DNA from: Paenibacillus sp. FSL M7-0420
GTDB lineage: Bacteria > Bacillota > Bacilli > Paenibacillales > Paenibacillaceae
Direction: 5' to 3'
Length of the DNA stretch: 64,000 bases
NCBI RefSeq assembly: GCF_038002345.1
Contig: NZ_JBBOCJ010000001.1
Coordinates: 4,216,001 to 4,280,000, forward strand
Under the pieces are notes generated by a model. It was not told where the DNA came from. It did not search any database and was given only the letters and a program-made list of their open reading frames with translations. Position numbers and translations under genes: made by a program. This document shows positions 7,746-42,695 of this stretch, piece by piece (the first letter of the stretch is position 1; each line of letters opens with the position of its first letter).

Positions 7746-10700
7746 CGTTGGGCGTGATCCCTCTAGTGATGATGCGAGCATGAATATCCAAGCATTCATT
7801 CGAAATAATCTTCATATTAGGATTGCTGGGTCCAGAAGTTTCATCATATAATCCAATAATTAGTTTGGATAATTCATCTTGCACACCCCATAAACCTTCA
7901 AGATTATCGGTTTGATTATTTATTAAATGTCGACTCATTGATAAAACAACATCCTTGTATTCAATAACTGACTTTGATTCCTCTTCCAAATACTGAACAA
8001 AAGCATACATGGAACTTCGGTTTAAATTTGAATTAGTTATCTCAATCAAAAACTCCTTATCTCTACTTAAATCTATCAAATTATCATAAAATAACCTTGA
8101 GATAGGGATTTCCAGGTCTAAATCGCTTTTTTTAAATCTACGAATAATATCTTTAGCTAAGTGATTATAGCTTTCCTTATTAAAATAGATAGTAACCATA
8201 TCTAATATATTTTCAGCTTGTACCTTACTCATAATTTCGATATTTGTCATTTCCACTTCAAATTCATTCTTAAGGATAAACATTTCAGCCAAGCAGTGCG
8301 CACCCATCTCTATTAATTCCTCATCATCAGAGGTATAACATTGGTTTATAAGTTCTAATACATCTTGACGATATTTGGGATAAAGTAAAAACAACATATC
8401 TTTTGTACCATGAAAGCCTGCAAAGCGATAATCTTGTTTATACATACTAATAATTCTTTCAGATGCCCATTCCTTATCTACATTAAAAGAAGGCCATAAT
8501 GCAAAGAAGCTTGCAAGCCTTACTGCTGGATTTTGATCCGATACCATTTGATCAAGCGTGACTTTTAATTCTTCAAAAAAACCATAATTCCTCCAAATTA
8601 ATCGAGCAATTGATTGAGCTGCTCTCCCTCTTACACAATTTAATGCGTTACTTTGTAACATGTTGAACGTATGCATTTCCTTATCTTCATTATTAGTCAC
8701 ATCAGGTTTTCCCATTATCGGATTCTTATGATTAATTGCAATATCTTTGATAATATCAAGGATTTCATGGGACCATGCAATATTATCTCTCTTCTCAATA
8801 ATCGTGCATAAGGAGCTTGCCCTACTATAATTGTCATTATCATATAGATACTTCAATATCATTTCTTCTAATAATTCTTGAGGAATATTATTCAAGTAAC
8901 TGCTATGTGCAACACCATTATAAAGTGAGTCAATATATGCGTCAGAAACCTCTTCATGAATAGATAACAATAACTTGATCATCCTTGTAGGGTTTTCAGT
9001 TACAGCATCATTAAAACTACTTGAAAATGTTGAAAGAGAGTTTTCGATAAAACCTCCTGGAATCTCTGTCCAACGTTTTCTCTGTTTGTCATTTAGCTTT
9101 TTATTTGTTAATAAAGTTCTCCATGTTCTATTATTTAAATTCTTACCTTCTATAGGGGAATTTACCGAACCACCATGTCCATTTGAATATTTGTAAATTG
9201 AGGATTCATTAAGGGATTTTCGTTTCAAAATCAAGAGTAATTCCTTGGCTTTATTACTTAAACGATTACTTGGGAGAGCTTCTAAAATATCTCTCTGAAA
9301 ATCCCCCCAAAAACTCCAGTAAGCTTTATAATCTTTATTTCCTTTATTGTATTCAATTCTTCGACGATACATATCTTTTGCTCGTGGAGAAATGTAGCTT
9401 ATTACCTTATTTTCTAGCATCCCAAAAACCTCTTGTTTGCATGTTTCAGAATGTCTGATTAATATCCTTTTGGCTAATAATAACTCATCACCAATACCAC
9501 TTGTTTTTTCAAAAATGTTATTATCAAAATCAATACTTAAATATTCAATAATAAAATCACTATACGTATGTGGGAAATTACACATTCCATCTAATATCAA
9601 TTCATTAAAGATTGCTTTGCCCTTCCCCATGTATTCATCATAGCGATTTAAAAATAAGTCCGGATCATTAGCAATTATTGCTGCATTAGCTTTTTTTATA
9701 ATTCCAATACTTGCTCTCTCTAAATTTCTTCTGTAATTACTTCTAGCAGACCAATCACCATAATTTAGCATCCCATCGTCTGACGTAGGAATATACGGCA
9801 ATAATATGTTGATTACATCCATTCCATTTTTTATAAATATTTCAGAATCTTCTTCTAGGAATTCATCCACATATCTATATATACTTTGACTCTGTCTCTT
9901 GAGTTGATTATTCAATAAAAATGCTAAAACTCTTATTGTTCTCATTTCACATTTTTTCAGCATTGCCTTAATGTCAATATCCGTATCAGCAAGTTGAGGA
10001 TATTTGTTATAAAACTCCATACGAAGTTCAAACATCTCATCTGTATCATAATTTATATTGTGTGAAAAGCATCGAAAAAACTCCATATCATCTTCTTCTG
10101 ATTTAAATAAATGTTCTACTATAAATTCAACATCTTTGACTTCATAATTTGGAGAGAGATTGATTACAAGCTTTAATGCAATATTCTTTTTTTCAGGATC
10201 ACTAAACCATTTATCTAAAAACCCATGATCTCTAAGTAGTCTAATATATTGTGGTTTAGTGTAAACGACATTATTTATTATATGCTTACTGTATAAGTCA
10301 TTTTCACAATTTTCTAATATATAAGTTTGAATATTTTCGTCTATAGTGTCTAACTGATTTAATATTTCAAAAAAGACAAATTTAAGACTATATCTAACCT
10401 GATCAGAAGATAACATTGTTTGACCTGCTTTAAGAAAATCTTCACTACACTGTTCGTTAAGATTCTGCAGTAGCATCTGCACCTGATATCTTTTTCCAGG
10501 GGTCTGCTGTTCTATACCTCCAATAGCCCCTAATATATCTTCAGTTTCATAATACTCAGTTAACATCTTTTCAACCAAGAAATAGTCTAATATGGACTGG
10601 TGAGCAAATGAAATCTTATTGTTTTGTATTACCAAAAAGCCGTTAGAAGATAAATTATCCAAGACTGATATATTATCATTTAGAAGCATTCGAGGAATTG

Positions 10701-28693: not shown

Positions 28694-28935
28694 TTTCTTC
28701 CTTCCTCCCCATGAACAAAATGGTAAAACCTTGGTTAACCTATCAGATCATGGTTGCGCTTTCATAGCTAAGATAGCATGTATCCCATAATTTGTAAATA
28801 CAAATTAGTAAGTGTGCTCAACGGTATGAATTGCAGAGAGGAAGGAATGTTCAGTCTATCGCACGCGAAGGGAATGCGGAGGGAATCTAGTGGAAAAAGT
28901 ACAACTATTCGAGCGCCCATGGCGTACTTGGGGGG

Positions 28936-29074
28936 TAGCAGTTGGATAAACTACACTTAATTTGTCCAGATTCAACGGATTTCATAGAATACGTGGAACT
29001 AAGTGCCTTTTTTCCAACTGCTTCTTGAAAAGGGAGCGGTTCGGCCGAAACAAGTGCTCTGTATCCAACTGCTA
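28936..29074. repeat. 13-bp inverted repeat flanking 113 bp
   Basis: TAGCAGTTGGATA (28936-28948) and TATCCAACTGCTA (29062-29074) are exact reverse complements. A third partial copy, TCCAACTGCT, lies between them near 29014. The 490-base gap 28694-29181 contains only this, the triplication below and no gene. Such AGTTGGATA-type intergenic units look like a dispersed, miniature-element-like family. Confidence 0.55.
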
Positions 29075-29102
29075 TGTTCTCTAGTGTGTCGGTTGCAGGG
29101 AG

Positions 29103-29135
29103 GGCAGCTCTCCGGCAGCTCTCCGGCAGCTCTCC
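29103..29135. repeat. Three tandem 11-bp repeats
   Basis: GGCAGCTCTCC occurs three times head to tail without mismatch, in the non-coding gap before the hypothetical gene ending at 29182. Confidence 0.75.
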
Positions 29136-29181
29136 GCGATTCTAACGGAAGCTTGTCCTACCAGAATCCGCCCTCCCCTGC

Positions 29182-29739
29182 TCAAGGAGCAAAAACCTCC
29201 GGGTTGTCGCTCGTCCAAGCACCGATGCAGCCGATCAGGCAGGCTGTGCAGCTTCTCAGCACCCGCCCGCGCAGGCTGTCCTCATACTCTAAGACGATAT
29301 TGATGCCCTGCCCCCGCCAAGCGAGAATCCGGCCGGAGAAGCCGGGCCACTCACATTCCTCATCCATCGCGGGCTGGCCGTATGCCGCCATCGCCTGTAC
29401 CGGAGAGGAGCTCATTGCAAGGCTCCCGGGAAGCAGCCCGGGATAAGGAGTCTTGATCCGGTCATCCGCTCCGGGCGCGAGGAACTGAACCGAACCGATA
29501 ATCCATTCTTGCGGGTCCGGATGCTGGAGTCCGGTCAGATTCTCCAGCTTGGGCCCGCGGTACAGATCAATGCGTAGGGATGATTTCGCAGTCCAGATGA
29601 TATCGTCGTTGAAATAGCTTTTTGGCACGGGCGGCAGTCTCCGGACACCGTAAGGCTTCAGCAGGGCCTGGATACGCTTGGGATCATACGGCTGGCCCAG
29701 CATTTCCACCAGTTGCTCGGAGGGTTCGTTCGTGGTCAT
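29182..29739 (-). CDS. Hypothetical soluble protein
   Basis: A 185-residue protein; start ATG 29739 is chosen because GAAGGGGAGAGG lies seven bases upstream, while the longer frame to 29844 has none. It begins MTTNEPSEQLVEMLGQPYDP and contains PPVPKSYFNDDIIWTAKSSL and a C-terminal Cys pair (SCTACLIGC). No membrane or secretion signal. I do not recognise a family; it could be a SMI1-like or scaffold domain protein but there is no decisive motif. It precedes the BlaR1-like gene on the same strand with 117 bases between. Confidence 0.65.
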   Translation of the reverse strand: MTTNEPSEQLVEMLGQPYDPKRIQALLKPYGVRRLPPVPKSYFNDDIIWTAKSSLRIDLYRGPKLENLTGLQHPDPQEWIIGSVQFLAPGADDRIKTPYPGLLPGSLAMSSSPVQAMAAYGQPAMDEECEWPGFSGRILAWRGQGINIVLEYEDSLRGRVLRSCTACLIGCIGAWTSDNPEVFAP

Positions 29740-29856
29740 ACCTGTCCTCTCCCCTTCACTTGTTCTTCTGTAATCCGCTCTTATTATAGCAAAAGCGCAC
29801 TCCCAGATGAAGCTCAAGGAAGCGCGCTTACTTGCAGGTGCCATCCTAACGAAGGC

Positions 29857-31272
29857 TTAGTTGGCATTGCTGAATTTCAGTCCCTCCTTGCCCAGTTCAA
29901 AGCCATATGCCTGGGCCAAAGCCTGAAGCTCACTGTCATCCAGCAGCTTAATCTCCTTAACGGCATTGTCTTTGTCTCTGATGACCCGGAAATCAGCCGA
30001 GCCGTTCCCGTCATAGTAGAATTTGTTGAACTTGCCTTCATGCTGAAGGTCCGGGTCCATGAACAGGCGGATATGCTTGCCGTTGTAGAGGAAGCGGTCC
30101 TGGGCCTTGTCATACGTTAAGCCGTAGACTACGTAATCCTTCAGTGCATCGTAATTGAAATCGGTGAGAGCTCCGCTTCCATCCGACGAAGCCGCAGCCG
30201 CATCGGGCCCGCTGCTGTCTCCAGTCTCCATTGCGCTCATTTCCGCAGCGCTGTCTGGTTGCACACCGCTCACGGCTCCGCTGGACTGCTCTGCGAACGC
30301 GGACACCGCTCCTGCGATCAGAATGAGTGAAATGGCCGCCGTCAACACGGTCAATTTTTGCAATTTCATAATCGACACGATCCTTTCTTTGGTCGCATTC
30401 TTACTGAAGCCTGTATACAGGGGCGTGAACCCCCTCTGCTCTTCCGCCACCTCCAAGAGACATAACGCATAATCCGCCCTGTGCTCTGCACCCAGCTTAC
30501 GGATGACTCTGGCATCACAGACCATCTCCAGCTCCCGGTTCAGATAGAAGACCATCAGCCAGACCAGCGGATTGAACCAGTGCAGGCATAGAGCCACGGA
30601 CGCTGCCAGCTTCCATACCGTATCGAAATACCGGATATGCATATATTCATGGGTGAGAATATAATCCATGGCCTGTGCGTTCCCGGTATTCAGGGTCGTA
30701 GGCAGAATAATCTTCGGACGCCAGATTCCGCACGTTACCGGCGTATCCATCCGGTCAAATGTCAATATGGCAAGCTTACGCCGCAAGGGATGCCGGGCAC
30801 ACCAGGCCTCAATGACAGGCTCCCGCCTCTGCAGAGGCAGTGCAGTCCGCAGCTCTCTCTTGCTTCTGTAGAAGATTACCGCCAGGGTCATAAACAGTAG
30901 CGCCGCGCCGCCAAGCCATATGGCACCGAGAAGCTCCGGCCTCAGGAACGGCTGCTCAGGCTCCCCGGCTGAGAAGGCCGTGAACGCTATATCCCGGGCG
31001 AACATCCCTGTGTGCAAGGCAGAATGTTCCGGCAACTGAACTACGGCTGCTGTGTGTGTATTCACCTGATCGAGCGCAGCAGCAACCTCTATCTGAGATG
31101 ATAGGTGCGGAAGAACAGGCACAGAACCCGGAATCAGCAGTCTGGCGATGACAATGCCCCACAGGACCAGGAACAGCTGTCTGGGTAATTTGTGCAGGGT
31201 CACAGACCGCAGCGCGATCACAAGAACGATTAGCACGCTTGCTGAAATACTCATCTGTAGAATATCCATCAT
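29857..31272 (-). CDS. M56-family BlaR1/MecR1-like sensor protease
   Basis: A 471-residue membrane protein. Four predicted helices (about residues 4-22, 32-50, 112-132 and 308-328) flank a cytoplasmic zinc protease domain with the HEYMH motif and the downstream Glu in NRELEMVCDARV. The extracytoplasmic C-terminal part is not a penicillin-binding domain: after a Ser/Ala-rich linker it holds a small domain (FNYDALKDYVVYGLTYDKAQ). It begins eight bases after the BlaI repressor stop. By analogy it would cleave BlaI on sensing an envelope signal; ligand unknown. Confidence 0.86.
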   Translation of the reverse strand: MMDILQMSISASVLIVLVIALRSVTLHKLPRQLFLVLWGIVIARLLIPGSVPVLPHLSSQIEVAAALDQVNTHTAAVVQLPEHSALHTGMFARDIAFTAFSAGEPEQPFLRPELLGAIWLGGAALLFMTLAVIFYRSKRELRTALPLQRREPVIEAWCARHPLRRKLAILTFDRMDTPVTCGIWRPKIILPTTLNTGNAQAMDYILTHEYMHIRYFDTVWKLAASVALCLHWFNPLVWLMVFYLNRELEMVCDARVIRKLGAEHRADYALCLLEVAEEQRGFTPLYTGFSKNATKERIVSIMKLQKLTVLTAAISLILIAGAVSAFAEQSSGAVSGVQPDSAAEMSAMETGDSSGPDAAAASSDGSGALTDFNYDALKDYVVYGLTYDKAQDRFLYNGKHIRLFMDPDLQHEGKFNKFYYDGNGSADFRVIRDKDNAVKEIKLLDDSELQALAQAYGFELGKEGLKFSNAN

Positions 31273-31280
31273 CCCTCGCC

Positions 31281-31640
31281 TCAGCGCAAGCTTTCCACGA
31301 TTTGCCTCAGCTTGTCGATATCCGCTTTGCTGAGGTTCTTTTCATTGAGAAATGCCGACAAGAACATCTCCGCTGAACCGCCGTACATTTTGTTGATCAG
31401 CTCCTTGGTCTCATACGTCTGCACTTGCTCCTTGGCAATCAGGGCTGTGCAGACAAACCCGGGATCTGTCCGCTCGATGGCGTCCTTGGCAATCAGCTTC
31501 TTAATTACCGTATAGGTCGTATTCCTGTTCCAGCCTGTCTCCTGGTTCAGAATGGCGGCCAGATCCCCTGCGGGCAGCTTGCCTTCCCTCCATAGAATCT
31601 CCATGACCTTCAGCTCGGAATCATACAGCTTAATCTCCAT
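31281..31640 (-). CDS. BlaI/MecI-family repressor
   Basis: A 119-residue winged-helix repressor starting MEIKLYDSELKVMEILWREG. ATG 31640 follows AAGGGAGG; the longer frame to 31703 would cross the operator. The HTH spans about residues 8-70 (NTTYTVIKKLIAKDAIERTD) and a helical dimer domain follows (FLNEKNLSKADIDKLRQIVE). It is translationally linked to the M56 sensor. The two palindromes upstream indicate autoregulation. Confidence 0.9.
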   Translation of the reverse strand: MEIKLYDSELKVMEILWREGKLPAGDLAAILNQETGWNRNTTYTVIKKLIAKDAIERTDPGFVCTALIAKEQVQTYETKELINKMYGGSAEMFLSAFLNEKNLSKADIDKLRQIVESLR

Positions 31641-31660
31641 GCACCAGCCTCCCTTCGTTT

Positions 31661-31713
31661 GACTACTGCAGTAGTCATACCTCAATACTACTCCAGTAGT
31701 CACCTAATGTCAA
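31661..31713 (-). promoter_or_regulatory. BlaI promoter with two operators
   Basis: On the minus strand TTGACA (31708-31713) and TAGTAT (31685-31690) are 17 bases apart. Operator 1 is the perfect palindrome GACTACTGCAGTAGTC (31661-31676) near the transcription start; operator 2, ACTACTCCAGTAGT (31687-31700), covers the -10 and spacer. Centres are 25 bases apart. The ACTAC/GTAGT half-sites match the known BlaI/MecI type. Confidence 0.85.
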
Positions 31714-31747
31714 TTATATCCTTTTAATCCTTGTTTATTCCATGTCA

Positions 31748-33508
31748 TTAGGCATACAAATCACTCTGAGCTGTGTACATCTCATAATATTTCCCCCGCC
31801 GGTTCATCAGTTCGGTGTGCGAGCCTGCTTCACAGATCTCCCCCTGGTCGAATACATAGATGATATCGCAGAGCCGGGTCACTCCCAGACGGTGTGAGAT
31901 CATGATCGTCGTCTTGTTCTCACACAGCGCCGAGAACTCTTCATAGATCTGCGTCTCCACCTTGGGGTCCAGGCTGGCTGTCGGCTCGTCCATAATCAGA
32001 ATCTCGCTGTCCGCCCGGCTGAGCGCCCTGGCAATCGCCAGCCGCTGCCATTGTCCGCCCGACAGCTCCAGATCATTGTTCTCCAGCTGGCCAAGCTGGG
32101 TGTCCAAGCCTTGGGGCAGATGATCAATGAAGGCATCCATATGGAAGATCCGCAAGGACTGCTTCTGGAACGCTTGTCCGAAATTCCCCGCCCGGATATT
32201 ATCCGCGACCGAGAACTGGTATTTAATGAAATTCTGAAATACACAGACCGTCTTCCTTCTGAACGAATCAATGACATCAGCGAGCGGGTCTCCTCCGATC
32301 AGCACCTCGCCTGAGGAGGGCTTGTACAAGCCTAGCAGCACATGAATGAAGGTGGTTTTACCGCTGCCGTTTTCGCCCACTAAGGCAATTTTCTCTCCTT
32401 TATGAATCGTTAGTTCAATATGTTTCAGTGTAAGGTTCAAGCTGCCAGGGTATTTGAAATCCACCTGCTTGAACTGAATAGTTGATGCATCTGAAAGCGT
32501 CTTATGCCCCCCGCCGGCATCCTCGGGGAGGTCCAGGAAATTCAGCATATCTTCCATATATAGCGTGTAATTGTTCATGGAACTGATTTTATTCACCATA
32601 CTGCTCAGAGCACCCGTTATTTCCTGCATGGCTGTAATCACCAGCATAACATCGCCTATACTCATTCGATTATCTATAACGCCCAGGCAGGTGATGAGCA
32701 GACAGATACCCAGTGCAATGTTCCGCAACAGATCGACGAGCGCTCCACCCAGCGTATAATGCAGCAGCAGCCCGAACTTCTCTCTCCATACCTCGCTTCG
32801 GATCTCTTCCGTGCGGTCATTGAAATAATCAATCAATCCGAACATACGGATCTCCTTGGCATATCTTCTGCTTGTCAGCACATCGTACATATAGTTCAAC
32901 CGGCGCAGCGGCTTGCTCTGTTCAACCGCCTGGAAGTAGCTCCGCTTGCCCTGTGCATTCATCAGCAGCAGATAAGGAATGGTGGCAAGCACCGCAATTA
33001 CGGGGAAATACCATTTAATATTCAACAGCAGCACTATAAAGGAGAACATGGAGAAGACGGGAAGCACGACAGACAAGGAGTTGTTGACGTAAGCCAGAAT
33101 CCCCTTGTTCACATTGGACTGGACCCGCTCCAGCAGATCATAGACGGCCGGGTTCTCCAGCTCTTCCATATCAATAACAGACAGCTTCTTGTTCACCTGT
33201 CTGATGAATTCACGGTTAATGTTATACTTCAGGCGATTATTAACATGCGCAGTAATATGCTCTATCCCTTCCAGGGCAATCTTCAGCACGGTATATCCAG
33301 CGATAAGGATCAGCAGCTTGTGCGTTACGGCAGATGCGGACTGGACGATAGCGAGGCCATCGATCAGGAGCTTATAGAGCCAGGCTCCAAGCGGGGCCAG
33401 CAATGCGCTGAGCGCCATAAGCGCCAGTGACAGGTACAGATCTTTGGTGCAGAACAGCTTAATGATCAGCTTGAGGTTGCGGACATGAACCAGCATTTTC
33501 GTTGTCAT
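31748..33508 (-). CDS. ABC exporter, fused membrane and ATPase domains (second of pair)
   Basis: A 586-residue half-transporter. I use ATG 33508 because it overlaps the upstream stop by ATGA, a coupled start. About six helices fill residues 15-310. The ATPase has Walker A LVGENGSGKTTF, signature LSGGQWQRLAIARAL, Walker B ILIMDEPTASLDP and the switch His in MISHRLG. No C39 leader peptidase is present. With the preceding ABC gene it likely forms a heterodimer that exports the mature peptide made by the linked radical SAM enzyme; the peptide-export role is inferred from context. Confidence 0.88.
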   Translation of the reverse strand: MTTKMLVHVRNLKLIIKLFCTKDLYLSLALMALSALLAPLGAWLYKLLIDGLAIVQSASAVTHKLLILIAGYTVLKIALEGIEHITAHVNNRLKYNINREFIRQVNKKLSVIDMEELENPAVYDLLERVQSNVNKGILAYVNNSLSVVLPVFSMFSFIVLLLNIKWYFPVIAVLATIPYLLLMNAQGKRSYFQAVEQSKPLRRLNYMYDVLTSRRYAKEIRMFGLIDYFNDRTEEIRSEVWREKFGLLLHYTLGGALVDLLRNIALGICLLITCLGVIDNRMSIGDVMLVITAMQEITGALSSMVNKISSMNNYTLYMEDMLNFLDLPEDAGGGHKTLSDASTIQFKQVDFKYPGSLNLTLKHIELTIHKGEKIALVGENGSGKTTFIHVLLGLYKPSSGEVLIGGDPLADVIDSFRRKTVCVFQNFIKYQFSVADNIRAGNFGQAFQKQSLRIFHMDAFIDHLPQGLDTQLGQLENNDLELSGGQWQRLAIARALSRADSEILIMDEPTASLDPKVETQIYEEFSALCENKTTIMISHRLGVTRLCDIIYVFDQGEICEAGSHTELMNRRGKYYEMYTAQSDLYA

Positions 33509-35247
33509 ATGACCTGATCTCCCGTATCGTACCATTTGGCCTGATTCCTGAAGAAGCTGCAATATTCTCCCTTCAGCTGCATCAGCTCAGCATGGGTGCC
33601 TACTTCCACGATCTCTCCCTGCTTCATAAATACGATTCTGTCGGCGAGCTTGGCAATTCCGATCCGGTGGGAGATGAGTACAACACTTTTGCCGCGAAAA
33701 TATTTGCCGATATTGCGGAACTGCTGAATCTCCGACAACGCATCCAGGGAGGCAGACGGTTCATCGAAGATAATAAAATCGGCCTCGCGCATGAACGCCC
33801 GGCTGATCGCCACCTTCTGCCACTGGCCTTCCGACATCTCAATTCCGTCGGCATCGAATTTTTTGCCCAGAATCGTGTCCAGTCCCTTGGGATATTGCTG
33901 AATGACCTGGTGAATCTGGCCTTTCACCGTTGCTTCTGTGACTCTATCGTTGTCGTTGATACTCGCTACATCGCCCAGACCGACATTATCCCGGACCGAG
34001 AATTCGAATTTGGCATAATCCTGAAAAGCTGCGGTCGAGGTCTTACAGTAACTGTGGACGCTGCCTTCCGTCGGCTTCAGCAGACCGGCCATAATTTTGG
34101 CCAGAGTACTCTTGCCGCTGCCGTTCTCACCGACAAGCACAATGCTCTCCCCTCTGCCGATGTGCAGATTAATATGTTGTAACACTGCGGACGAATTACC
34201 GTATGCAAAAGAGACATCATGCAGCTCCATCGCCATCCTGTTTCTGGTTAACACCGAAGAAGGCTGGTGAGGAGTCTCTGCTGCTTGTGTCTCTGGTGTA
34301 ATCAAATCTCTGAATTCCTTGATGTAGATGGTATTCTTGCGGGCTTCGGAGAAGAACTCGGCGAAGGAATTGACTCCCTCGATGATCTGTCCCTGCCCTT
34401 GAGTTAATACGATCAGCTGATCCAGGCTCAGCGTTGTCAGCGCCACAGCATAACACATCACCAGCAGCGTACTGTTCTCCAGGCCCAGCATCAGCCCGGA
34501 CCATATACAGCCAATCACCGTCCATTTCAGGCTGAAGGCCATATTCATGTCTCTGATCTCATCGAATTTGGAGAGCCGCTTCGACTCCAGCCACTCAAAA
34601 ATCTGAAAGCTCCTAATCTCCTTCTGGTTGCTCCGGTCTTGCATGAGACGGCTCAAATAATTCAGCTTGCGGTCCTCATGCTCCTGCCTCTTCGTTACTG
34701 CAATATGTTCCTCCGTGTTGCGCTTCACAAAATAGTTATAGAGCAGCCCAAGCACAATAAAGGCCGCTACATACATAGCCCCCAGCCTGACAATAATCCA
34801 TACAGACATGCAGAAGCCGGCAATGGACCCGAAGAAATGGAATACATCGTTAACGGCATTCGTGAGCTTATACCATAAGGTATCCTTCGCCCGCTCGATT
34901 CGAAGCAGATAATCCGCCTGATCCAGCTTGTCTAAATCTGCCTGGGCAATAGCGGTGAACATCTGTCTTTGCAGCAGTGCGCCGACCTTATTCTCCAGCA
35001 ATTCTATGAACAGCAGCGAAAAGGAATATTGGATATTCTTCAATGAGTATACGAGGATATAGGCAATAATGAGGATGGCAATAGACATCACCCCGGACGG
35101 ATGCCCAAGGCTGACGATGATCCGCCCGATCAGAAGCAGCTCTAAGGGCTGCAGGGCGTACATTAGGATATAGAGCAGGAGGATGGATACCATCGTTACC
35201 GGCTGTTGTCTGAAAAAGATGGACAGAACCCATTTATATTCCTTCAA
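33505..35247 (-). CDS. ABC exporter, fused membrane and ATPase domains (first of pair)
   Basis: A 580-residue half-transporter with TTG start at 35247 behind GGGAGGGGGAGC. The N-terminal ~320 residues hold six predicted helices. The ATPase has Walker A LVGENGSGKSTL, a degenerate signature MSEGQWQKVAIS (Glu for the second Gly), Walker B FIIFDEPSASLD and the switch His in LISHRIG. Its signature differs from that of the partner gene, as is usual in asymmetric heterodimers. It follows the peptide gene across a strong hairpin and overlaps the next ABC gene by four bases. Confidence 0.88.
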   Translation of the reverse strand: MKEYKWVLSIFFRQQPVTMVSILLLYILMYALQPLELLLIGRIIVSLGHPSGVMSIAILIIAYILVYSLKNIQYSFSLLFIELLENKVGALLQRQMFTAIAQADLDKLDQADYLLRIERAKDTLWYKLTNAVNDVFHFFGSIAGFCMSVWIIVRLGAMYVAAFIVLGLLYNYFVKRNTEEHIAVTKRQEHEDRKLNYLSRLMQDRSNQKEIRSFQIFEWLESKRLSKFDEIRDMNMAFSLKWTVIGCIWSGLMLGLENSTLLVMCYAVALTTLSLDQLIVLTQGQGQIIEGVNSFAEFFSEARKNTIYIKEFRDLITPETQAAETPHQPSSVLTRNRMAMELHDVSFAYGNSSAVLQHINLHIGRGESIVLVGENGSGKSTLAKIMAGLLKPTEGSVHSYCKTSTAAFQDYAKFEFSVRDNVGLGDVASINDNDRVTEATVKGQIHQVIQQYPKGLDTILGKKFDADGIEMSEGQWQKVAISRAFMREADFIIFDEPSASLDALSEIQQFRNIGKYFRGKSVVLISHRIGIAKLADRIVFMKQGEIVEVGTHAELMQLKGEYCSFFRNQAKWYDTGDQVI

Positions 35248-35268
35248 GCGCTCCCCCTCCCTTTGTTA

Positions 35269-35307
35269 GACAAGAACATGATTATATGAAATAACCATGT
35301 TCTTGTC
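35269..35307 (-). terminator. 12-pair hairpin between peptide gene and ABC genes
   Basis: GACAAGAACATG (35269-35280) and CATGTTCTTGTC (35296-35307) are perfect complements with a 15-base loop. On the minus strand no T-run follows (TAACAAAG), so it is more likely a partial attenuator or an mRNA end protector, which would keep the upstream peptide message more abundant than the transporter message. Confidence 0.6.
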
Positions 35308-35347
35308 GGGTAGTATTGAACTTGTTAAGTATGCCGAGGATCAGGGT

Positions 35348-35494
35348 TTACCAGTTTCCGCATTTAAAGTTTTTCTTACAGGAGTAGCTTCCGCAGTTAA
35401 AGGTTTTCGGGCAGCTGAAGCCATTAGTACACGCTGCAGGAGTGATCATAGAATCAGTGCTTGCTTTTTCAATCATAGGTCTGATATAGCTCAT
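35348..35494 (-). CDS. Cys-rich RiPP precursor peptide
   Basis: A 48-residue open frame with ATG at 35494 preceded by GGGAGGTGAGAAC, an excellent ribosome site. The first ~20 residues form a Cys-free leader (MSYIRPMIEKASTDSMITPA). The core from about residue 21 has Cys at 22, 28, 34, 39 and 45 and ends G-N-W. Cys28, 34, 39 and 45 are each preceded by an aromatic residue two places earlier (F26, F32, Y37, F43), giving four [FY]-x-C units. It lies 34 bases after the radical SAM/SPASM gene and 100 bases before the ABC exporters, the expected slot for the substrate of the maturase. A thioether (sacti/ranthipeptide) or cyclophane-type product is inferred. Confidence 0.8.
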   Translation of the reverse strand: MSYIRPMIEKASTDSMITPAACTNGFSCPKTFNCGSYSCKKNFKCGNW

Positions 35495-35528
35495 GTTCTC
35501 ACCTCCCTTCAAGTCGCTGTCTGCCGGA

Positions 35529-36623
35529 TTACTGCGGCACTAGCGCTTTTCTGTTCTTCTTCAGCTCAGAGACATAATATTTCGTTCTTACCTTGCAGCA
35601 GCCATCCGTATCCTGAATTGAGCCTCCGTTGGCTACTGCGAGCGCTACACACCCCTTGCCGCAAGTCCCATTCCATATACAGCTCTGGCATTGGTTCATA
35701 TAATTCTGTCCCACTTGAAAGAACTTGACCAGGTTCACGAGTTCCTGAGATTCAAGCATGGAGGACAGGCTCGTCTGATTGACATTGCCGATGGCATACT
35801 GCGCGTCCGTGAACAATTGGCACAGGAACACATTACCGGAAGAATCTATTCTCGGTGTTAACGGAATCCGGTCAGCGTCTGCGGTCACTCCATTTAACAA
35901 CGGGCAGGCTCCTGTAAAATCATCGGGCAGTGTGATCTTCATACCGCTGTCCATCAGCTTCACAATCTCTGGTTCCCGCTCCAGACGCTCCACCAGTGCC
36001 GACTTCTCCAGAATGTCCAGGTATAGGTTGTTCCGGTTATCTTCACTGCGGCCCAGGTTGCTGAGGCTTGCGATCTCAGCCTGGGGAATCTTAAGCTCAG
36101 CGACCATCTTCAGCAGATGAACGATGTCATCCTTATTGAAGCCCGTAAGCACGCTGCGGATCAGGATACGTTCGCTCATGCCGGCATCGAGTAAATGCGT
36201 AAGGCCCCGCATCGTCTGGTTAAAGCTGCCGCGTCCGCATAATTGATCATGAATCTCCGCGCGTGAACCATTCACACTTAGCTGTATGGCCACTTTGCAG
36301 GCCGCGAATTTCTCAGCAACCTCCCGGGTGATATAGGTGCCGTTCGTGATGACCAGCACCATGCCGAACTGCTTCTTCTGCAGTGCCTCCATGAAATTCC
36401 AGAATTCAGGATGCGAGGTTGGTTCTCCCCCGGAGATGGTGATGCTTGTATCGGGATGATCCGGCAGATCATTAATGATGTTCATGAAGGTCGGCATATC
36501 AATCTGATCCTGCAGGACGCCGGATTCGTTATAGCAATGCAGGCAGCGCAGGTTGCAGTTTGAAGTGATCTCCAGGTAGCAACCGCCTAATCGAAAGCTC
36601 TTGGCTGGGGATAACAATTCCAC
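35529..36623 (-). CDS. Radical SAM/SPASM peptide maturase
   Basis: A 364-residue enzyme with GTG start at 36623 (GAGGTG upstream). The radical SAM cluster ligands are C23-x3-C27-x2-C30, SAM-binding GGEP is at 65-68. The C-terminal SPASM domain has C240, C268 (in GNVFLC), C312-x2-C315-x5-C321-x3-C325 and C342-C343, enough for two auxiliary iron-sulfur clusters. Such enzymes install thioether or carbon-carbon bonds in ribosomal peptides. There is no N-terminal RRE in the protein itself; that function is supplied by the PqqD-like gene directly upstream (9-base gap). The Cys-rich peptide gene follows it. Confidence 0.92.
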   Translation of the reverse strand: MELLSPAKSFRLGGCYLEITSNCNLRCLHCYNESGVLQDQIDMPTFMNIINDLPDHPDTSITISGGEPTSHPEFWNFMEALQKKQFGMVLVITNGTYITREVAEKFAACKVAIQLSVNGSRAEIHDQLCGRGSFNQTMRGLTHLLDAGMSERILIRSVLTGFNKDDIVHLLKMVAELKIPQAEIASLSNLGRSEDNRNNLYLDILEKSALVERLEREPEIVKLMDSGMKITLPDDFTGACPLLNGVTADADRIPLTPRIDSSGNVFLCQLFTDAQYAIGNVNQTSLSSMLESQELVNLVKFFQVGQNYMNQCQSCIWNGTCGKGCVALAVANGGSIQDTDGCCKVRTKYYVSELKKNRKALVPQ

Positions 36624-36632
36624 ACAAGCACC

Positions 36633-36911
36633 TCATTTCCTTATTTTCACGAAACCTCTCTGCTCCAGTTCTTCAAATGCGCCAATACAGTCCGTAATAA
36701 TATCGCTTAATTCAAGCTGGTCCTTCTCCAGACACTGGTCATGGAGCATACCGGCAACCTCTGATACCGTTCTTCCATTGCAGTGCTCCCATAAATACTT
36801 GGCGGTCTGATTCAAGAAGAACATCTCATGATTACGGTCCATCACCAGTGATTCCTCACCAAGATCCTCATGGATAACATTGACTTTGGACAATAACGTG
36901 CTTGCGTTCAT
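36633..36911 (-). CDS. PqqD-like RiPP recognition element protein
   Basis: A 92-residue PqqD-fold protein: beta strands with ESLVMDRNHEMFFLNQTAKY followed by LWEHCNGRTVSEVAGML and a helical end (CIGAFEELEQRGFVKI). This is the small winged-helix RiPP recognition element that binds leader peptides and presents them to the radical SAM enzyme. The start ATG 36911 has AAGGATGTGAGTGA upstream. It is first in the operon pqqD-rSAM-peptide-ABC-ABC. Confidence 0.9.
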   Translation of the reverse strand: MNASTLLSKVNVIHEDLGEESLVMDRNHEMFFLNQTAKYLWEHCNGRTVSEVAGMLHDQCLEKDQLELSDIITDCIGAFEELEQRGFVKIRK

Positions 36912-36923
36912 TCACTCACATCC

Positions 36924-37043
36924 TTACGGGAAATAACGGATTGTGTTGCTGGATAGCCACGGCATAACGTGATTTGTTTCACATTTGAATCTATCATTGA
37001 TCTCTTCCATCTCTTCTGAATTCAATATAACGCATCCTTTCAC
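36924..37043 (-). CDS. Candidate short peptide gene ahead of the RiPP operon
   Basis: An open frame of up to 39 codons (GTG 37043, or TTG 37025 with AAAGGA nine bases upstream, or ATG 37010) ends 12 bases before the PqqD-like start. From the TTG it reads about 33 residues, starting with an acidic NSEEMEEINDRF and ending WLSSNTIRYFP. It could be a leader peptide, a second short substrate or chance. Length alone gives little support, so this is tentative. Confidence 0.3.
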   Translation of the reverse strand: MKGCVILNSEEMEEINDRFKCETNHVMPWLSSNTIRYFP

Positions 37044-37047
37044 TTTA

Positions 37048-37076
37048 TGGAACATTATGTATGTTAATGGTATAAT
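37048..37076 (+). promoter_or_regulatory. Extended -10 promoter of the two-component genes
   Basis: TATAAT (37071-37076) is preceded by TGG, giving a TGn extended -10; the -35 position reads TGGAAC (37048-37053, 17-base spacer), a weak match. It lies 79 bases before the response regulator gene. Confidence 0.6.
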
Positions 37077-37154
37077 AAGGCATGCAAACGCATTCCCTGG
37101 TTCATTTTATTGCTAGTCTATGAGGGATAACGACATTTAAAAGGAGAGATCGAA

Positions 37155-37907
37155 TTGTTTCATGTAGGCGTGTGCGATGATGATGCCGAGGTTCTGAGCA
37201 AGGTGAAGCAGTATTTCAAGCTGCTGTCGCTGTCGACCAACTATTCATTTGATGTCCACTGCTTCTCTTCCGGCGAACAGCTGCTGCAGCATTATAAAGC
37301 CATGCAGGGAGAATACACCTATCACCTGTTGATTCTGGATGTGGAAATGTCCGGGATCAGCGGAATTGAAACCGCTCAGGCTATCCGGTCTTTGCCTGAC
37401 CGCGATGTGCAAATTATCTTCCTGAGCAGCTATCCTGAATACATCATGGACAGCTTCGACGTTCAGACCTTCCAATACCTGCTCAAGCCAGTCCCCTATG
37501 AATTATTCCAAGACAAAATACTTAAGCTGTGCAGCTATATTCATTCCAGCCCGAACCGCTTCTTCACCATTAAGGTAGAGGATGATCAGGTGGTGCTGCG
37601 GCGGCCCGATATTATTGCTATTGTCAAAATTAAGCATTCCCTTGCCCAAAATAAGCTGAAGCTCATCACTGCCTCCCGGGAGTACCTCATTAATGGCACC
37701 TTGCAGAGCTATTCGGATAAGCTGGGCAATCCGTTCCTGCTGATTCACCGTTCCATAATTGTCAATCTGGAGCATGTCCGCAGATTCAACGCGAATTCCG
37801 TGGTTATGTCCAGTGATGAAGAATATCCTATTGGACGTTCCCAGTCGAAGGCCTTCAAGGATGTCTATGCCGGGTATGTGCTGGAAGAAATTCAAGGGAG
37901 AGGATAA
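37155..37907 (+). CDS. LytTR-family response regulator
   Basis: A 250-residue AgrA/LytR-type regulator with TTG start behind AAAAGGAGAG. The receiver domain has the acidic pocket D8-D9-D10 and phospho-acceptor D62 in LLILDVEMSG, and the conserved Lys in YLLKPV. The LytTR DNA-binding domain follows from about residue 138 (FFTIKVEDDQVVLRRPDIIA, LIHRSIIVNLEHV, VVMSSDEEYPIGRSQSKAFK). Such regulators bind paired direct repeats. It is divergent from the radical SAM operon and two bases before the kinase gene, so control of the peptide operon is likely. Confidence 0.9.
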   Translation: MFHVGVCDDDAEVLSKVKQYFKLLSLSTNYSFDVHCFSSGEQLLQHYKAMQGEYTYHLLILDVEMSGISGIETAQAIRSLPDRDVQIIFLSSYPEYIMDSFDVQTFQYLLKPVPYELFQDKILKLCSYIHSSPNRFFTIKVEDDQVVLRRPDIIAIVKIKHSLAQNKLKLITASREYLINGTLQSYSDKLGNPFLLIHRSIIVNLEHVRRFNANSVVMSSDEEYPIGRSQSKAFKDVYAGYVLEEIQGRG

Positions 37908-37909
37908 CG

Positions 37910-38608
37910 ATGGTCTTATGGTTCAGGAGGAGGAATGAGGCCGCCCGGCTGGCGGAGTTGAATGGCCGTCTGCACAGACAGCTTGAAGCCCAGGAGCTCA
38001 GCTATCAGGATACCTTACATTCCTTCATGGACATCAAGCGAATCATTCATGATATCAACAAGCAACTGGTATACATACGCGCCTGTATTGAAGCAGGTCA
38101 TGCGGCAGAGGGCGCAGATCATATTAACGGGATTTTGCAACAGATCGAGGCCTCCTGCAACACCATCACTACCGGCAACCTGGCGGTGGATGCCTTGGTC
38201 AGCCATGCGCTTAACCTCGCCTCTGACCTGAACATTGCCATGCAGCATAAGGTACAGCTCTCCGGTGCACCTGTTAACATTGAACACTACGATCTGTGCA
38301 TAGTACTTGGCAACCTTCTGGATAATGCCATAGATGCTGCGAGACAGGTCCGGCCGGCTCAGAACAGATCCATTCAGCTTCATATCCATTCGAACAACAA
38401 TGCCCTCGTTATCTATATTGGCAACTCCATGGCCGCTCCCGCCAGCACAGCAGCGCCATGCCGCCGGGCCCATCCTGAAATGCACGGAATCGGCTTAAGT
38501 ACTATTCAACAGGTTACGGGCAAATACGGCGGGCACCTGAGAACCACCGTCAAGCCAGGGAAGTACGAAACGGTTGTTGTTCTGCCTTATGCGAAGACTG
38601 GAAGCTAA
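37910..38608 (+). CDS. Soluble AgrC-like histidine kinase
   Basis: A 232-residue kinase of the GHKL/AgrC type. The H-box is RIIHDINKQL (H47), the N-box NLLDNAIDAA (N135, N139) and the G-box MHGIGLSTIQQ. Unusually there is no transmembrane or sensor domain: the frame begins with MVLWFRRRNEAARL and goes straight to a coiled coil. ATG 37910 follows the response regulator stop by two bases with AGAGGA upstream. It either senses an intracellular cue, needs a membrane partner, or is a truncated AgrC relative. It would phosphorylate the LytTR regulator. Confidence 0.85.
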   Translation: MVLWFRRRNEAARLAELNGRLHRQLEAQELSYQDTLHSFMDIKRIIHDINKQLVYIRACIEAGHAAEGADHINGILQQIEASCNTITTGNLAVDALVSHALNLASDLNIAMQHKVQLSGAPVNIEHYDLCIVLGNLLDNAIDAARQVRPAQNRSIQLHIHSNNNALVIYIGNSMAAPASTAAPCRRAHPEMHGIGLSTIQQVTGKYGGHLRTTVKPGKYETVVVLPYAKTGS

Positions 38609-38659
38609 ATACAGGTTGCCGCGCCGACTCGTATGGATCAAGAAGCCCGCAGCGTCAGC

Positions 38660-39823
38660 CTATCCGTTCCTTAGAGCGTTGCTCTCGCGTGAGCTTCTGC
38701 CTATCATCAGTTGTACCGCGATCATAAGTACAGTAACCACAGCCATGCCGATCAGCGCGGGCTGGAAGGAACCCGAGGCATCGTAGATACGGCCAACCGC
38801 GAGCGGTCCCAAAGCTCCGAGAAAATACCCGCCCCCCTGATTAAGCGACGACCAGGAGCTGGCCTCTTCCGCCCGCTCCGTCATTAAGAGCGGCAGCATT
38901 AGAGCCAGCGGGAATAATCCGCCGGCGCCAATGCCGAGCAGCACTGCGCTCAGCAGCGGTGAGGCTGAGCCCAGAAGGAGCAGCAGTCCGCTTAGCTCGA
39001 ACAGACTGCACAGCACTAGCCATAACGTGCGCCGCTGGAATCTGGCCACAAGGATAGGCACGAGGATGCTTACCGGAATCTGTATCAAGGTGAACAGTGT
39101 GAGCAGATTGCCCGCTTCATGCTTGCTATACCCCATGGATGCGGCCATCGGCGCCAGCCAGGCAGTCAGCGAATAGAAGATGCTCGCCATAAGGCCGAAG
39201 AATATGGTCAGCAGCCAGGCTCTGCCGTTAGCCAAGGGCAGCCGGGCATGTGCAGTCTGCTCCTTCAGCGGCTTGGACCGCGCGGCAATCCTCCACCAGA
39301 CAGGGAGAGCGGCGAGCGACAAGACTGCCCATACCGCCAGGGACAGCTGCCAGGAATTGTCCAGCCAGGTATAGACCGGAACAGCCAGCCCGGCTGCGAG
39401 TGAAGCACCCATCACCATTGAGGCGGAATACACACTGACCATAGCCGAGCGGCCGGGAAAATGACGCTTAATGAAGCCGGACAGCAGCGGTCCGGCAATT
39501 CCGATCCCTACGCCTGCTGCCAGCGCCGTCAGAATGAGACCGGAGGATGAAGACAGGAACCCGCGTGCGGCTGTCGCCGCCCCGATCAGCACCATAGCCC
39601 CGAAGATCGTGCGCTCCAGACCGAAGCGCCGGCTGATGCTCACGGCAAGGGGGGCGAATATTCCCATACACAGGACTGGCAGTGTTGTCATCAGACTGGC
39701 CTGCAGGCTGTTCATCCCCAGATCACTCTGAATGTTACCCAGCAGCGGTGAGACCGAAGTGATTACCGGACGCATATTTAATGAGGCTGCCAGCAAGGCA
39801 ACGAATAATAGTAAGAAAGGCAT
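38660..39823 (-). CDS. MFS transporter, CynX/NimT-like
   Basis: A 387-residue integral membrane protein with about 12 helices. I start at ATG 39823 because GGAG lies eight bases upstream; in-frame GTG/ATG codons just before it are possible. The N-terminal pattern LNMRPVITSVSPLLGNIQSD is typical of the CynX/NimT subfamily of the major facilitator superfamily (cyanate, nitroimidazole or organic-anion transporters). Its start is divergent from a LysR-type regulator. Confidence 0.85.
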   Translation of the reverse strand: MPFLLLFVALLAASLNMRPVITSVSPLLGNIQSDLGMNSLQASLMTTLPVLCMGIFAPLAVSISRRFGLERTIFGAMVLIGAATAARGFLSSSSGLILTALAAGVGIGIAGPLLSGFIKRHFPGRSAMVSVYSASMVMGASLAAGLAVPVYTWLDNSWQLSLAVWAVLSLAALPVWWRIAARSKPLKEQTAHARLPLANGRAWLLTIFFGLMASIFYSLTAWLAPMAASMGYSKHEAGNLLTLFTLIQIPVSILVPILVARFQRRTLWLVLCSLFELSGLLLLLGSASPLLSAVLLGIGAGGLFPLALMLPLLMTERAEEASSWSSLNQGGGYFLGALGPLAVGRIYDASGSFQPALIGMAVVTVLMIAVQLMIGRSSRESNALRNG

Positions 39824-39881
39824 TTCCATCACTCCATATCAGTATTTTGTATTTAGCCTGAGTATACGGCGATGTCATATA

Positions 39882-39910
39882 TTGATCAATACTATTGTTT
39901 ATATTATTAT
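39882..39910 (+). promoter_or_regulatory. Promoter of the LysR-type gene
   Basis: TTGATC (39882-39887) and TATTAT (39905-39910) are 17 bases apart, 44 bases before the lysR start, in the intergenic region shared with the divergent MFS gene. The region also contains AT-rich dyad-like ATTGATCAAT (39881-39890), a candidate regulator site. Confidence 0.6.
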
Positions 39911-39953
39911 AATAGTAATTGACTATGATCTTATCCTGAAAGGAGTGAATTCC

Positions 39954-40871
39954 ATGGAAACCCGCCACCTGCACTATTTCATGGCCGTCTGCGAAGAACT
40001 GCATTTCACACGCGCCGCTGAGGGACTGGGCATCAGCCAACCGACACTAAGCCAGCAGATTAAAGTACTGGAAGGTGAAATGGGCATGCCCCTGTTCGAC
40101 CGGATCGGCAAAAAGATTGCCCTTACCGAAGCTGGTGCCCTCCTGAAGGACTACGCAGCCCGGATGATTCAGAATGAGCAGAATGCCAAGGCAGCGATTA
40201 ATGAGCTGCGCTCCGACAACCGCGGCATGATCCGGCTTGGGGTGCTGCCCTCTGACCTGGACTACCGCCTAACTCCGATGCTGGTTAAATTCCATTCCGA
40301 TTTTCCGAATATCCGGCTCCAGGTCTTCGCTTCAACGCTTATTCAGCAGGAGGTGCTGGAGAACAAGCTGGACATCGGCATCTGCCTTCCGGGTCCGCGT
40401 GATTCCATGCTGACTCAAGTGGACCTGGGCTGGGAGCCTTATCATCTGATTGTCCGCGAGGATCATCCTTATGCCGCCAAGAGCCACATTGAGCTGTCAT
40501 CACTTCAGCAGATCCAGCTTGTAATGTACCCGCGCACCTATATCGGCAGAGAGCTGGTGGAGAATACCTGCCGGGAGGCAGGCTTCGAGCTGGAACCGAT
40601 CATGGAGACCGGATCAGCCACCTCGCTGCTTCAGCTGGTCAAGGCCGGGATTGGCGGTACCATACAACCGCGCGGACTGCTTGAGGGCATGGAGAACAGC
40701 AGACTGCGCTCCATTCCGATCCTGAATACCGCCCCCTGCCGCAACCTCAGACTGATCTACCGGGCTGACCGCTACATCAGCCATGCCACCCATACCTTCA
40801 TCAGCAGCCTGCGCCGGTTCCTGATCGACAATCTCCGGCTTGAGGACGGGCTTCGAACCCTTGAAAAATGA
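39954..40871 (+). CDS. LysR-family transcriptional regulator
   Basis: A 305-residue LysR regulator. ATG 39954 has AAAGGAGTG upstream; the longer frame to 39732 would overlap the divergent MFS gene. The N-terminal helix-turn-helix reads HLHYFMAVCEELHFTRAAEG then LGISQPTLSQQIKVLE, close to the CynR/AlsR type. The C-terminal periplasmic-binding-like domain senses an effector (VDLGWEPYHLIVREDHPYAA). It likely activates the divergent MFS gene. Confidence 0.9.
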   Translation: METRHLHYFMAVCEELHFTRAAEGLGISQPTLSQQIKVLEGEMGMPLFDRIGKKIALTEAGALLKDYAARMIQNEQNAKAAINELRSDNRGMIRLGVLPSDLDYRLTPMLVKFHSDFPNIRLQVFASTLIQQEVLENKLDIGICLPGPRDSMLTQVDLGWEPYHLIVREDHPYAAKSHIELSSLQQIQLVMYPRTYIGRELVENTCREAGFELEPIMETGSATSLLQLVKAGIGGTIQPRGLLEGMENSRLRSIPILNTAPCRNLRLIYRADRYISHATHTFISSLRRFLIDNLRLEDGLRTLEK

Positions 40872-40901
40872 TATAATAATATTGAATGGAGTTGATGGCC
40901 G

Positions 40902-41741
40902 ATGGAATTACTGGACCCGCGTGTGGATTTTGTATTCAAACGGATATTTGGCAGCGAGAACAACAAGGATGTACTGTTGGCATTTCTTAACCGCATTTTC
41001 ACCGAAGCTGGCGAGCCGCCGTTGACTGAGATTATTTTAATGAATCCATATACGGATAAAGACGATCCACTGGATAAACAGTCCATCTTTGATGTTTATG
41101 CCAGAACGTCAGAAGGTAAACTGATTGATATAGAGATGCAGCTGTTTAATAAGTACGACATAGAGAAAAGAACGCTTTTTTATTGGAGTAAACGATATGC
41201 GAGTCAACTCAGCGAGGGTGAAAAGTATCCAGAATTGAAGAAATGCGTAACGATCAATATTTTGAATTATTCGTTCTTGAAGAATAAGCAATATCATAAC
41301 GTATTTCATTTGCGGGAAGACCGGACAGGGATATCCTTGATTGACGACATCGAGGTTCATTTCTTGGAATTACCGAAGCTTGATGAACTTAGTGTGCCAA
41401 CTGAAGGTGGACTGATCAATTGGCTATTGTTCCTGAAAGGTGCGGATACATCACACTGGGAGGTGCTGAAGATGAATGAGCCGGGATTAGAGAAGGCGAT
41501 GGATACTCTGCAATATCTGAGTCAGGATTCAGAGGCCAGACGATTGTATGAAGCGAGACAGAAGTATTTGCATGATGAGGCCTCCATGCTGGGAAGTGCC
41601 AAATTGGCAGGTATGAAGGAAGGTATCAAGGAAGGTATCAAAGAAGTAGCGAAGAATATGCTGGACTTGAATCTGGACATAATGACCATTGTAAAGGCCA
41701 CTGGATTAACAGAGCAGGAGATCCATTCTTTGAGAAAGTAA
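40902..41741 (+). CDS. Rpn-family PD-(D/E)xK nuclease/putative transposase
   Basis: A 279-residue protein of the Rpn/PF12784 family (recombination-promoting nuclease or PD-(D/E)xK transposase-like). The nuclease core is seen as LDPRVDFVFKRIFGSENNKD near the N-terminus, then SIFDVYARTSEGKLIDIEMQ with the D and E-x-Q catalytic residues. The C-terminal region has the typical short repeat GMKEGIKEGIKEV and a small helical end. These genes are abundant and strain-variable in Firmicutes; roles proposed include DNA exchange and phage defence. It has its own terminator and no operon partner. Confidence 0.88.
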   Translation: MELLDPRVDFVFKRIFGSENNKDVLLAFLNRIFTEAGEPPLTEIILMNPYTDKDDPLDKQSIFDVYARTSEGKLIDIEMQLFNKYDIEKRTLFYWSKRYASQLSEGEKYPELKKCVTINILNYSFLKNKQYHNVFHLREDRTGISLIDDIEVHFLELPKLDELSVPTEGGLINWLLFLKGADTSHWEVLKMNEPGLEKAMDTLQYLSQDSEARRLYEARQKYLHDEASMLGSAKLAGMKEGIKEGIKEVAKNMLDLNLDIMTIVKATGLTEQEIHSLRK

Positions 41742-41778
41742 AGAATGAGCATCCACACGTTGATGCTACTTACCAAAC

Positions 41779-41828
41779 AGGGGCCATCCCAAGCAGCCAT
41801 ATCATGGCTTTTAGGACAGCCCCTTTTA
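41779..41828 (+). terminator. Terminator of the Rpn gene
   Basis: AGGGGC and GCCCCT enclose an inner hairpin AGCCAT/ATGGCT and are followed by TTTTAT, 38 bases after the Rpn stop. It may also serve the convergent murR-like gene. Confidence 0.7.
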
Positions 41829-41843
41829 TAGAGAGGTTCAACA

Positions 41844-42695
41844 TTAGTCATTCAAAACTTCAATCATCTGCCTTGTCTTCGCCAGCTGCTCCACAGTTAA
41901 ATCATGCTGGGCAGAAGCATATACGCTAAAGACAATATCGAGCACAAATAATTGGGCAAACCTTGAGCTGGTTGCCGCACTGCGAAGTGTGGCTTCCGGG
42001 GCACGTGATGTAAATAAAGAAACATCCGCCAGCTGGGAAAGCTTGTTATTTCCAGGACGGGTAAGGCTGATTGTTTTGATCCCGTGCTCCTTGGCCCGTT
42101 TGGTTAATTGAATGACCTCGCCCGTCTCCCCGCTATACGAAATTCCCCAGAAGACAGCGTTCTCTGATTTCGTAGCCATAGCTGCCGCCAATAAATGACG
42201 GTCTGAAATAGCATATACATTTTTGCCGAGCCGCAGCCATTTCTGTGCCGCATCCTCTGCAATAATAAAAGAGGCGCCTATCCCATAAACATAAATAACC
42301 TCTGCCTGCTGTAACAGGCTCACGGCCTGCTCAATCGAATGCGCGTCCAGTTGACTGGCTGTATTCTGAAAGGTCAATATGGTATTGGACAACATTTTAT
42401 CAATGATCGAATGCACCGTCTCGTTGGATTCTACATCAAAGTAGCCGACATAATTCGTATTCTCTACTTCTGCGGATAAACGGATCTTCAGGGCGGGGAA
42501 GCCCTCGATGCCCAATGAACGGCAAAAACGGACAACCGCCGCACTGCTTGCCTCCGCTTTAGCCGCTAACTCATGTATGCTCATATGCATCACTTCTTTA
42601 GCATTGGCAAGAATGTACTCCGCTACTTTTTTTTCGGATTCCGGCAGTTCATTTAATACCAGTTCAATTTGAGAAATCATACTTCCTGCTGCCAA
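41844..42695 (-). CDS. murR: MurR/RpiR-family regulator of the MurNAc operon
   Basis: A 283-residue regulator: N-terminal RpiR helix-turn-helix (VAEYILANAKEVMHMSIHEL, AAKAEASSAAVVRFCRSLGI) and a C-terminal SIS sugar-phosphate domain with VYGIGASFIIAEDA and GISYSGETGEV. TTG 42695 has GAGGAG upstream; an ATG five codons later is an alternative. It is the last gene of the murQ-murP-mupG operon, 61 bases after mupG. The likely effector is MurNAc-6-phosphate. The palindrome before murQ is its probable target. Confidence 0.87.
   Translation of the reverse strand: MAAGSMISQIELVLNELPESEKKVAEYILANAKEVMHMSIHELAAKAEASSAAVVRFCRSLGIEGFPALKIRLSAEVENTNYVGYFDVESNETVHSIIDKMLSNTILTFQNTASQLDAHSIEQAVSLLQQAEVIYVYGIGASFIIAEDAAQKWLRLGKNVYAISDRHLLAAAMATKSENAVFWGISYSGETGEVIQLTKRAKEHGIKTISLTRPGNNKLSQLADVSLFTSRAPEATLRSAATSSRFAQLFVLDIVFSVYASAQHDLTVEQLAKTRQMIEVLND

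Follow-up and report, generated by a model that had tools for sequence, protein, structure and literature searches.

A conserved cysteine-rich peptide of Paenibacillus with an aromatic-x-cysteine repeat, a probable substrate of the adjoining radical SAM/SPASM enzyme

Findings

A gene for a 48-residue, Cys-rich peptide lies on the minus strand of the genomic stretch analyzed here (64,000 nucleotides of Paenibacillus sp. FSL M7-0420, hereafter the window), and this peptide is very probably the substrate for a natural product modified by a radical enzyme. It appears to define an uncharacterized, probably multi-ring peptide family with members in Paenibacillus and in distant gut sequences. We confirmed that the frame is a real gene, and hold with high confidence that it encodes the precursor of the adjoining pair formed by a discrete PqqD-like protein and a radical SAM/SPASM enzyme. 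The locus presents what is generally found for RiPPs with radical SAM/SPASM maturases, namely a short, conserved precursor of leader/core form beside genes for a RiPP recognition element (RRE) and a maturase, and we infer that the maturase modifies the peptide. The minus-strand genes follow the order PqqD-like protein, radical SAM/SPASM enzyme, peptide, hairpin and two ABC exporter halves, with a divergent regulator-kinase pair on the plus strand:

36633..36911, minus strand: discrete PqqD-like protein (RRE), 92 aa (Pfam PqqD, 1.3e-7, over the gathering score)
35529..36623, minus strand: radical SAM/SPASM maturase, 364 aa, GTG start
35500..35507, minus strand: ribosome-binding site GGGAGGTG of the precursor gene, five bases 5' of the ATG
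35348..35494, minus strand: gene of the precursor peptide, 48 aa (from the ATG at 35494 to a stop that ends at 35348)
35269..35307, minus strand: predicted hairpin between precursor and exporter genes, also predicted in five other species
33505..35247, minus strand: ABC exporter half 1, 580 aa from TTG (Pfam; synteny)
31748..33562, minus strand: ABC exporter half 2, 604 aa from TTG (Pfam; synteny)
37155..37907, plus strand: divergent LytTR response regulator, AgrA-type by domain content (Pfam; synteny)
37910..38608, plus strand: GHKL histidine kinase with no predicted membrane part (Pfam)

The precursor gene and its conservation

The translated product of 35348..35494 on the minus strand, MSYIRPMIEKASTDSMITPAACTNGFSCPKTFNCGSYSCKKNFKCGNW (48 aa), consists of a Cys-free leader (residues 1-21) carrying the motif Y3-x-x-P6-x-I8, and a core rich in Cys and aromatic residues (22-48), the border between them being presumptive. 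The core has Cys at 22, 28, 34, 39 and 45 and five aromatic residues, F26, F32, Y37, F43 and W48, the first four of which stand two residues before Cys28, 34, 39 and 45 (position -2), leaving Cys22 without one. A gap of 34 bases separates the gene from the stop codon of the radical SAM gene. The preliminary description had given this frame, its Cys positions and -2 aromatics, its good ribosome site and the gap, and all of these were reproduced, with the strand being minus. Frames with at least three [FYW]xC units are rare in the window (two among 1147 stop-to-stop frames of at least 30 codons), and the precursor frame alone has four; shuffling of the window core alone placed a -2 aromatic at four of the five Cys in 0.08% of cases.

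The peptide had no match in NCBIfam up to E 1, nor in Pfam up to E 0.1. A word-based protein search with it recovered a single relative, a P. riograndensis 'hypothetical protein' of 92% identity, so that the earlier label 'unannotated' was too strong. A further search with the peptide gave eight matches, four of which (E 0.0025-0.009; internal stops in two) were put down to chance.

The maturase is present in 7 of 100 genomes of the genus, and the same seven were recovered among 394 genomes of the family. Six of these copies are intact, the window's included, and all six adjoin a peptide gene, which supports the earlier proposal that the peptide is the precursor of the neighboring PqqD and SPASM pair. 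At 6/6 intact loci the gene order is identical, with the peptide accompanied by PqqD, the two ABC genes, the regulator and the kinase, and GGAGGTGA is retained upstream of the start in each of the six Paenibacillus copies. Between the window's precursor and that of genome G053 there are 16 synonymous changes over 26 sites vs 11 nonsynonymous changes over 118 sites, and the five Cys and five core aromatics are unchanged across the six species. As synonymous changes are frequent, while protein changes are few and spare the Cys and core aromatics, the precursor gene is under purifying selection in these species; conservation and substitution pattern together rule out a chance frame.

The seventh maturase copy (genome G085, locus L128, 7296-8646) is truncated: about 97 N-terminal residues are followed by the second half of a BlaR-like gene. 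PqqD is kept at this locus, and the peptide and exporters had no match there. The regulator match of G085 is split in two around residue 161/162.

Distant relatives and leader recognition

Beyond Paenibacillus, a related cluster was found in MT838633 (L129), a 5 kb human-faecal record labeled as phage, whose frames (regulator, transposase, PqqD, maturase, ABC) read as bacterial. Its maturase is 37% identical to that of the window, and its PqqD-like protein shows 33% identity across 82 residues. It encodes two tandem precursors, each preceded by a purine-rich ribosome site, and the gene after them reads as an ABC transporter. In each precursor the first Cys has no aromatic at -2, four [FY]-x-C units follow and the last Cys has an aromatic three residues after it (+3). 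Of 13 proteins recovered when the pair was used for a profile search, one (P0066, read as a protein sequence alone) is intact and distinct from the pair, and has the same precursor pattern with one -2 Phe replaced by Tyr. Among the database copies of the gut precursors, ten (P0062-P0065, P0067-P0072) are frameshifted or cut within the core at different places, reflecting either assembly errors or real inactivation. A Clostridia match (L122), with a 28% identical maturase beside a frame that reads as YcaO-like, was assigned to another system and left out of the counts; this distant radical SAM/PqqD cluster also has a small frame led by YxxP, with two Cys and one YxC (7428-7637).

The motif YxxPx[IV] occupies residues 3-8 in the six Paenibacillus precursors, the MT838633 pair and P0066, in the variants YIRPMI, YSEPLV and YSEPVV. 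A 2026 paper describes, in the portion available, recognition of [Y/W]xxPx[L/V/I/F/A] by the discrete RREs of lasso peptides, and a requirement for YxxP in an LPP precursor-RRE complex (PMC13381572). Both parts of such a system, the leader motif and a separate PqqD-like protein, are present at the window locus, and docking of the leader on the discrete PqqD-like protein is a well-founded reading of the motif and its neighbors. The LPP and lasso systems have modifying enzymes that differ from the window's, and the term 'radical SAM' is absent from the main text of that paper. Based on these parallels, we propose that the leader YxxPxI is bound by the discrete PqqD-like RRE, which would present the precursor to the radical SAM/SPASM enzyme.

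Pattern of the core and pairing of its residues

For statistics on the core we used four distinct sequences, namely those of the window, of the two MT838633 precursors and of P0066, leaving out the five other Paenibacillus precursors, which are near copies, and 12 of the 13 profile-search proteins, which are near copies of the MT838633 pair or its frameshifted or truncated copies. An aromatic residue stands at -2 in 16 of 20 Cys, as against a shuffle mean of 4.0, a count reached in 0/20,000 shuffles of these four cores, which are related to one another (three come from one gut-type group), so that this and the following p-values overstate independence. An aromatic at +4 was seen in 10/20 (4.2 expected, p 0.001), and none of the remaining offsets between -7 and +7 had a p below 0.18. 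In all four cores the first Cys has no aromatic at -2, and the last has one at +3 (the latter with p 0.0037, or 0.00014 with the Ar-x-C units fixed). The preliminary description had proposed conservation of [FY]-x-C as its own check, and the unit is indeed kept in every distinct core; its account of four aromatic-x-Cys units stands, and what it overlooked is the conserved Cys22 without a -2 aromatic and the +3 aromatic.

The pattern makes it likely that the core carries crosslinks of some kind between Cys and aromatic residues: the enzyme would join core Cys to aromatics in small unnested rings, with loss of 2 H for each. The fixed Ar-x-C distance suggests that the three-residue unit is itself the ring, and we tentatively prefer, as a reading with a little less than an even chance, that these are specifically [FY]-x-C thioether rings. 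Cys28, 34, 39 and 45 would then pair with F26, F32, Y37 and F43 in four three-residue rings, the bond being probably S-to-C-alpha (sactionine), in 9-membered rings as in suisactin, with Cys22 free or paired elsewhere. We found no example of an aromatic acceptor in a 9-membered sactionine in the available portions of the literature on such rings.

The +4 enrichment counts against pairing at -2, which is further weakened because the conserved first Cys and the +3 aromatic of the last Cys would be idle. Both are accounted for in all four cores if each Cys is instead joined to the next aromatic downstream (F26, F32, Y37, F43 and W48 at +4, +4, +3, +4 and +3). This would use all five Cys and all five core aromatics of the window in five unnested rings with one-residue linkers, comparable to those that streptosactin forms from Cys to +3, with aromatics as the acceptors instead. 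There is precedent in the streptosactin pairs Cys25-Ser28 and Cys31-Gly34 and in the Phe acceptor of subtilosin, as given in the accessible part of PMC8172795, which at one point prints Cys25 as Cys15. Such forward pairing would, however, vary in ring size from +2/+3 to +6 across the cores while the gap from acceptor to next Cys stays constant, and the fixed Ar-x-C unit is the stronger signal; we regard it as somewhat unlikely.

The same [FY]-x-C unit could in principle be closed through the aromatic side chain (aryl-S, aryl to C-beta of Cys, or S to the benzylic carbon), which would yield four cyclophane-type rings in a row. We found no radical SAM RiPP precedent for this bond type in the literature as far as it was available, and consider it unlikely. 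A triceptide-like form, with the Phe/Tyr aryl carbon joined to Cys C-beta and the free thiols perhaps forming disulfides, has the i,i+2 shape of the known triceptides, such as those of MscB (C4 of Phe to C-beta of Ser) and YxdB (C3 of Tyr to C-beta of Asp) described in part of PMC11002830. Each of the four distinct cores has four aromatic-x-X units with Cys as the third residue, yet Cys is absent from this position in the examples described in the text available, and its constancy would be left without a reason. No triceptide-maturase profile was recognized among the best 25 NCBIfam matches of the maturase either (rank 25 has 56 bits vs 132 for StsB), and this reading is quite improbable.

The maturase

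The best NCBIfam profile for the window's maturase is that of the sactipeptide maturase StsB, with 132.1 bits against a cut-off of 625 and an alignment that begins only at position 95; it is nearly tied with the mycofactocin maturase profile (127.4 bits, cut-off 265), and AlbA (70.6/850 bits) and PapB (81.3/340 bits) score lower, so that the enzyme falls under the curated cut-off of all four families. From the profile name we take StsB to be the streptosactin maturase, and which of the best 25 profiles belong to triceptide maturases is likewise our presumption. The mycofactocin maturase is not known to make a thioether. The StsB match speaks for the preferred [FY]-x-C rings and for forward pairing, and the near tie counts against both.

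In an alignment that took in 31 of 58 homologs (A1), six SPASM Cys are invariant and one is nearly so. An open Aux I site was proposed for AlbA on the grounds of its seven Cys for two clusters, and CteB has an open Aux I (PMC6231123, in part); the count might lend weak backing to the preferred reading. Seven Cys also make up the SPASM motif in general. In view of the near tie, the scores under cut-off and the generality of the seven Cys, the enzyme tells little about the bond. That profile scores point to no single chemistry, and that sequence similarity poorly predicts fold or function in SPASM/Twitch enzymes (PMC6231123, same portion), leaves room for a different change: hairpin or other non-local thioethers, other bonds with Ar-x-C as a docking repeat, or a disulfide or metal-binding peptide. 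As the repeat is exact at -2 along the whole core, donors and acceptors are not separated, and the operon position favors modification by the maturase, we judge this decidedly unlikely. The invariant C129 of the maturase aligns with an Arg of SkfB, which by residue count would be the AdoMet-positioning Arg223; anSMEcpe likewise has Cys there.

Relationship to known systems

The preferred [FY]-x-C rings most resemble suisactin (QMP family, QmpB, Streptococcus suis) in acceptor-x-Cys spacing, more than one small ring and a radical SAM maturase. In the parts of the papers available, the two sactionines of suisactin each close a nine-membered ring, for which a Dhb-Phe-Cys tripeptide served as model (PMC12395415), and rings of one intervening residue are attributed to QmpB (PMC13361665). 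The likeness is one of ring description, and in contrast to the two rings of suisactin the window peptide has four possible ones, with aromatic acceptors, a discrete PqqD-like protein and a setting in Paenibacillus and gut clusters. Streptosactin (GGG family, GggB) shares unnested small rings, and StsB is the profile closest to the window's maturase, which nevertheless lies far under its cut-off; the acceptors of streptosactin are Ser/Gly at +3. The freyrasin-type ranthipeptides (PapA/PapB) are alike in single-file Cys, several possible small rings and a Paenibacillus host, and differ in their C-x3-D units and in the low PapB score. The triceptides (XncB, OscB, MscB, YxdB) share the aromatic-x-X three-residue unit, and part from the window peptide in its third residue, Cys; their maturase profiles were not recognized among the best 25 matches.

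The preliminary description had set the peptide apart from the classical nested hairpin and from the freyrasin type, and rightly so: Cys spread over 22-45 alternate with aromatics, unlike the N-terminal donors and C-terminal acceptors of nested-hairpin sactipeptides, and the core has no Asp. Its suggestion of a new type fits the family of precursors and their aromatic repeat, with less clarity as regards the bond, since both an acceptor-x-Cys ring (suisactin) and unnested sactionines (streptosactin) are known. We found no description of the precursor family in the open literature, most subscription journals lying outside this scope. A 2016 survey of Bacillales names P. riograndensis, in its accessible text, among hosts of putative, unnamed sactipeptide clusters with very limited similarity to known ones (PMC5100339), possibly including the type described here. 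The clusters of SacP23 and gnavucin D, from recent sactipeptide papers available in part, are different. No enzymes of lanthipeptide, thiopeptide or lasso synthesis were recognized in the window frames of 28000-42000 or in seven scanned proteins.

These observations delineate a precursor family conserved in Paenibacillus and gut sequences, together with the parts that would recognize it, and offer in aromatic-x-Cys a simple, testable rule for an enzyme group with no assigned chemistry. Tandem three-residue rings on aromatics, if true, would extend radical SAM ring-making and could serve as a unit that can be programmed; with the opposite pairing, these data would instead represent a new streptosactin-like topology.

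Export, regulation and adjoining genes

The product would be exported by the ABC pair, and as no C39 peptidase is present among the Pfam matches of either exporter half, its leader may be cut by an unlinked or general protease. For exporter half 2, an in-frame ATG at 33508 (MTTKM) is a likelier start than the TTG. The hairpin at 35269..35307, for which Rfam gave nothing at gathering score, is possibly an attenuator or mRNA-stability element. The divergent LytTR/GHKL pair probably controls the system, whose likely role would be that of a bacteriocin or signal.

Hydrophobic segments are absent from the GHKL kinase frame of the window, and from those of G050 and G083. In three sister species (L124, L125, L126, about 10660-12110) the matching frame is longer (~450 codons), with several hydrophobic segments on its N-terminal side, and for this reason the membrane part of the window's sensor may have been lost. 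A gene pair at 29857-31703 of the window, which we take from its sequence to be BlaI/BlaR-like, follows the exporters in 6/6 intact loci and possibly represents a leader peptidase or immunity sensor.
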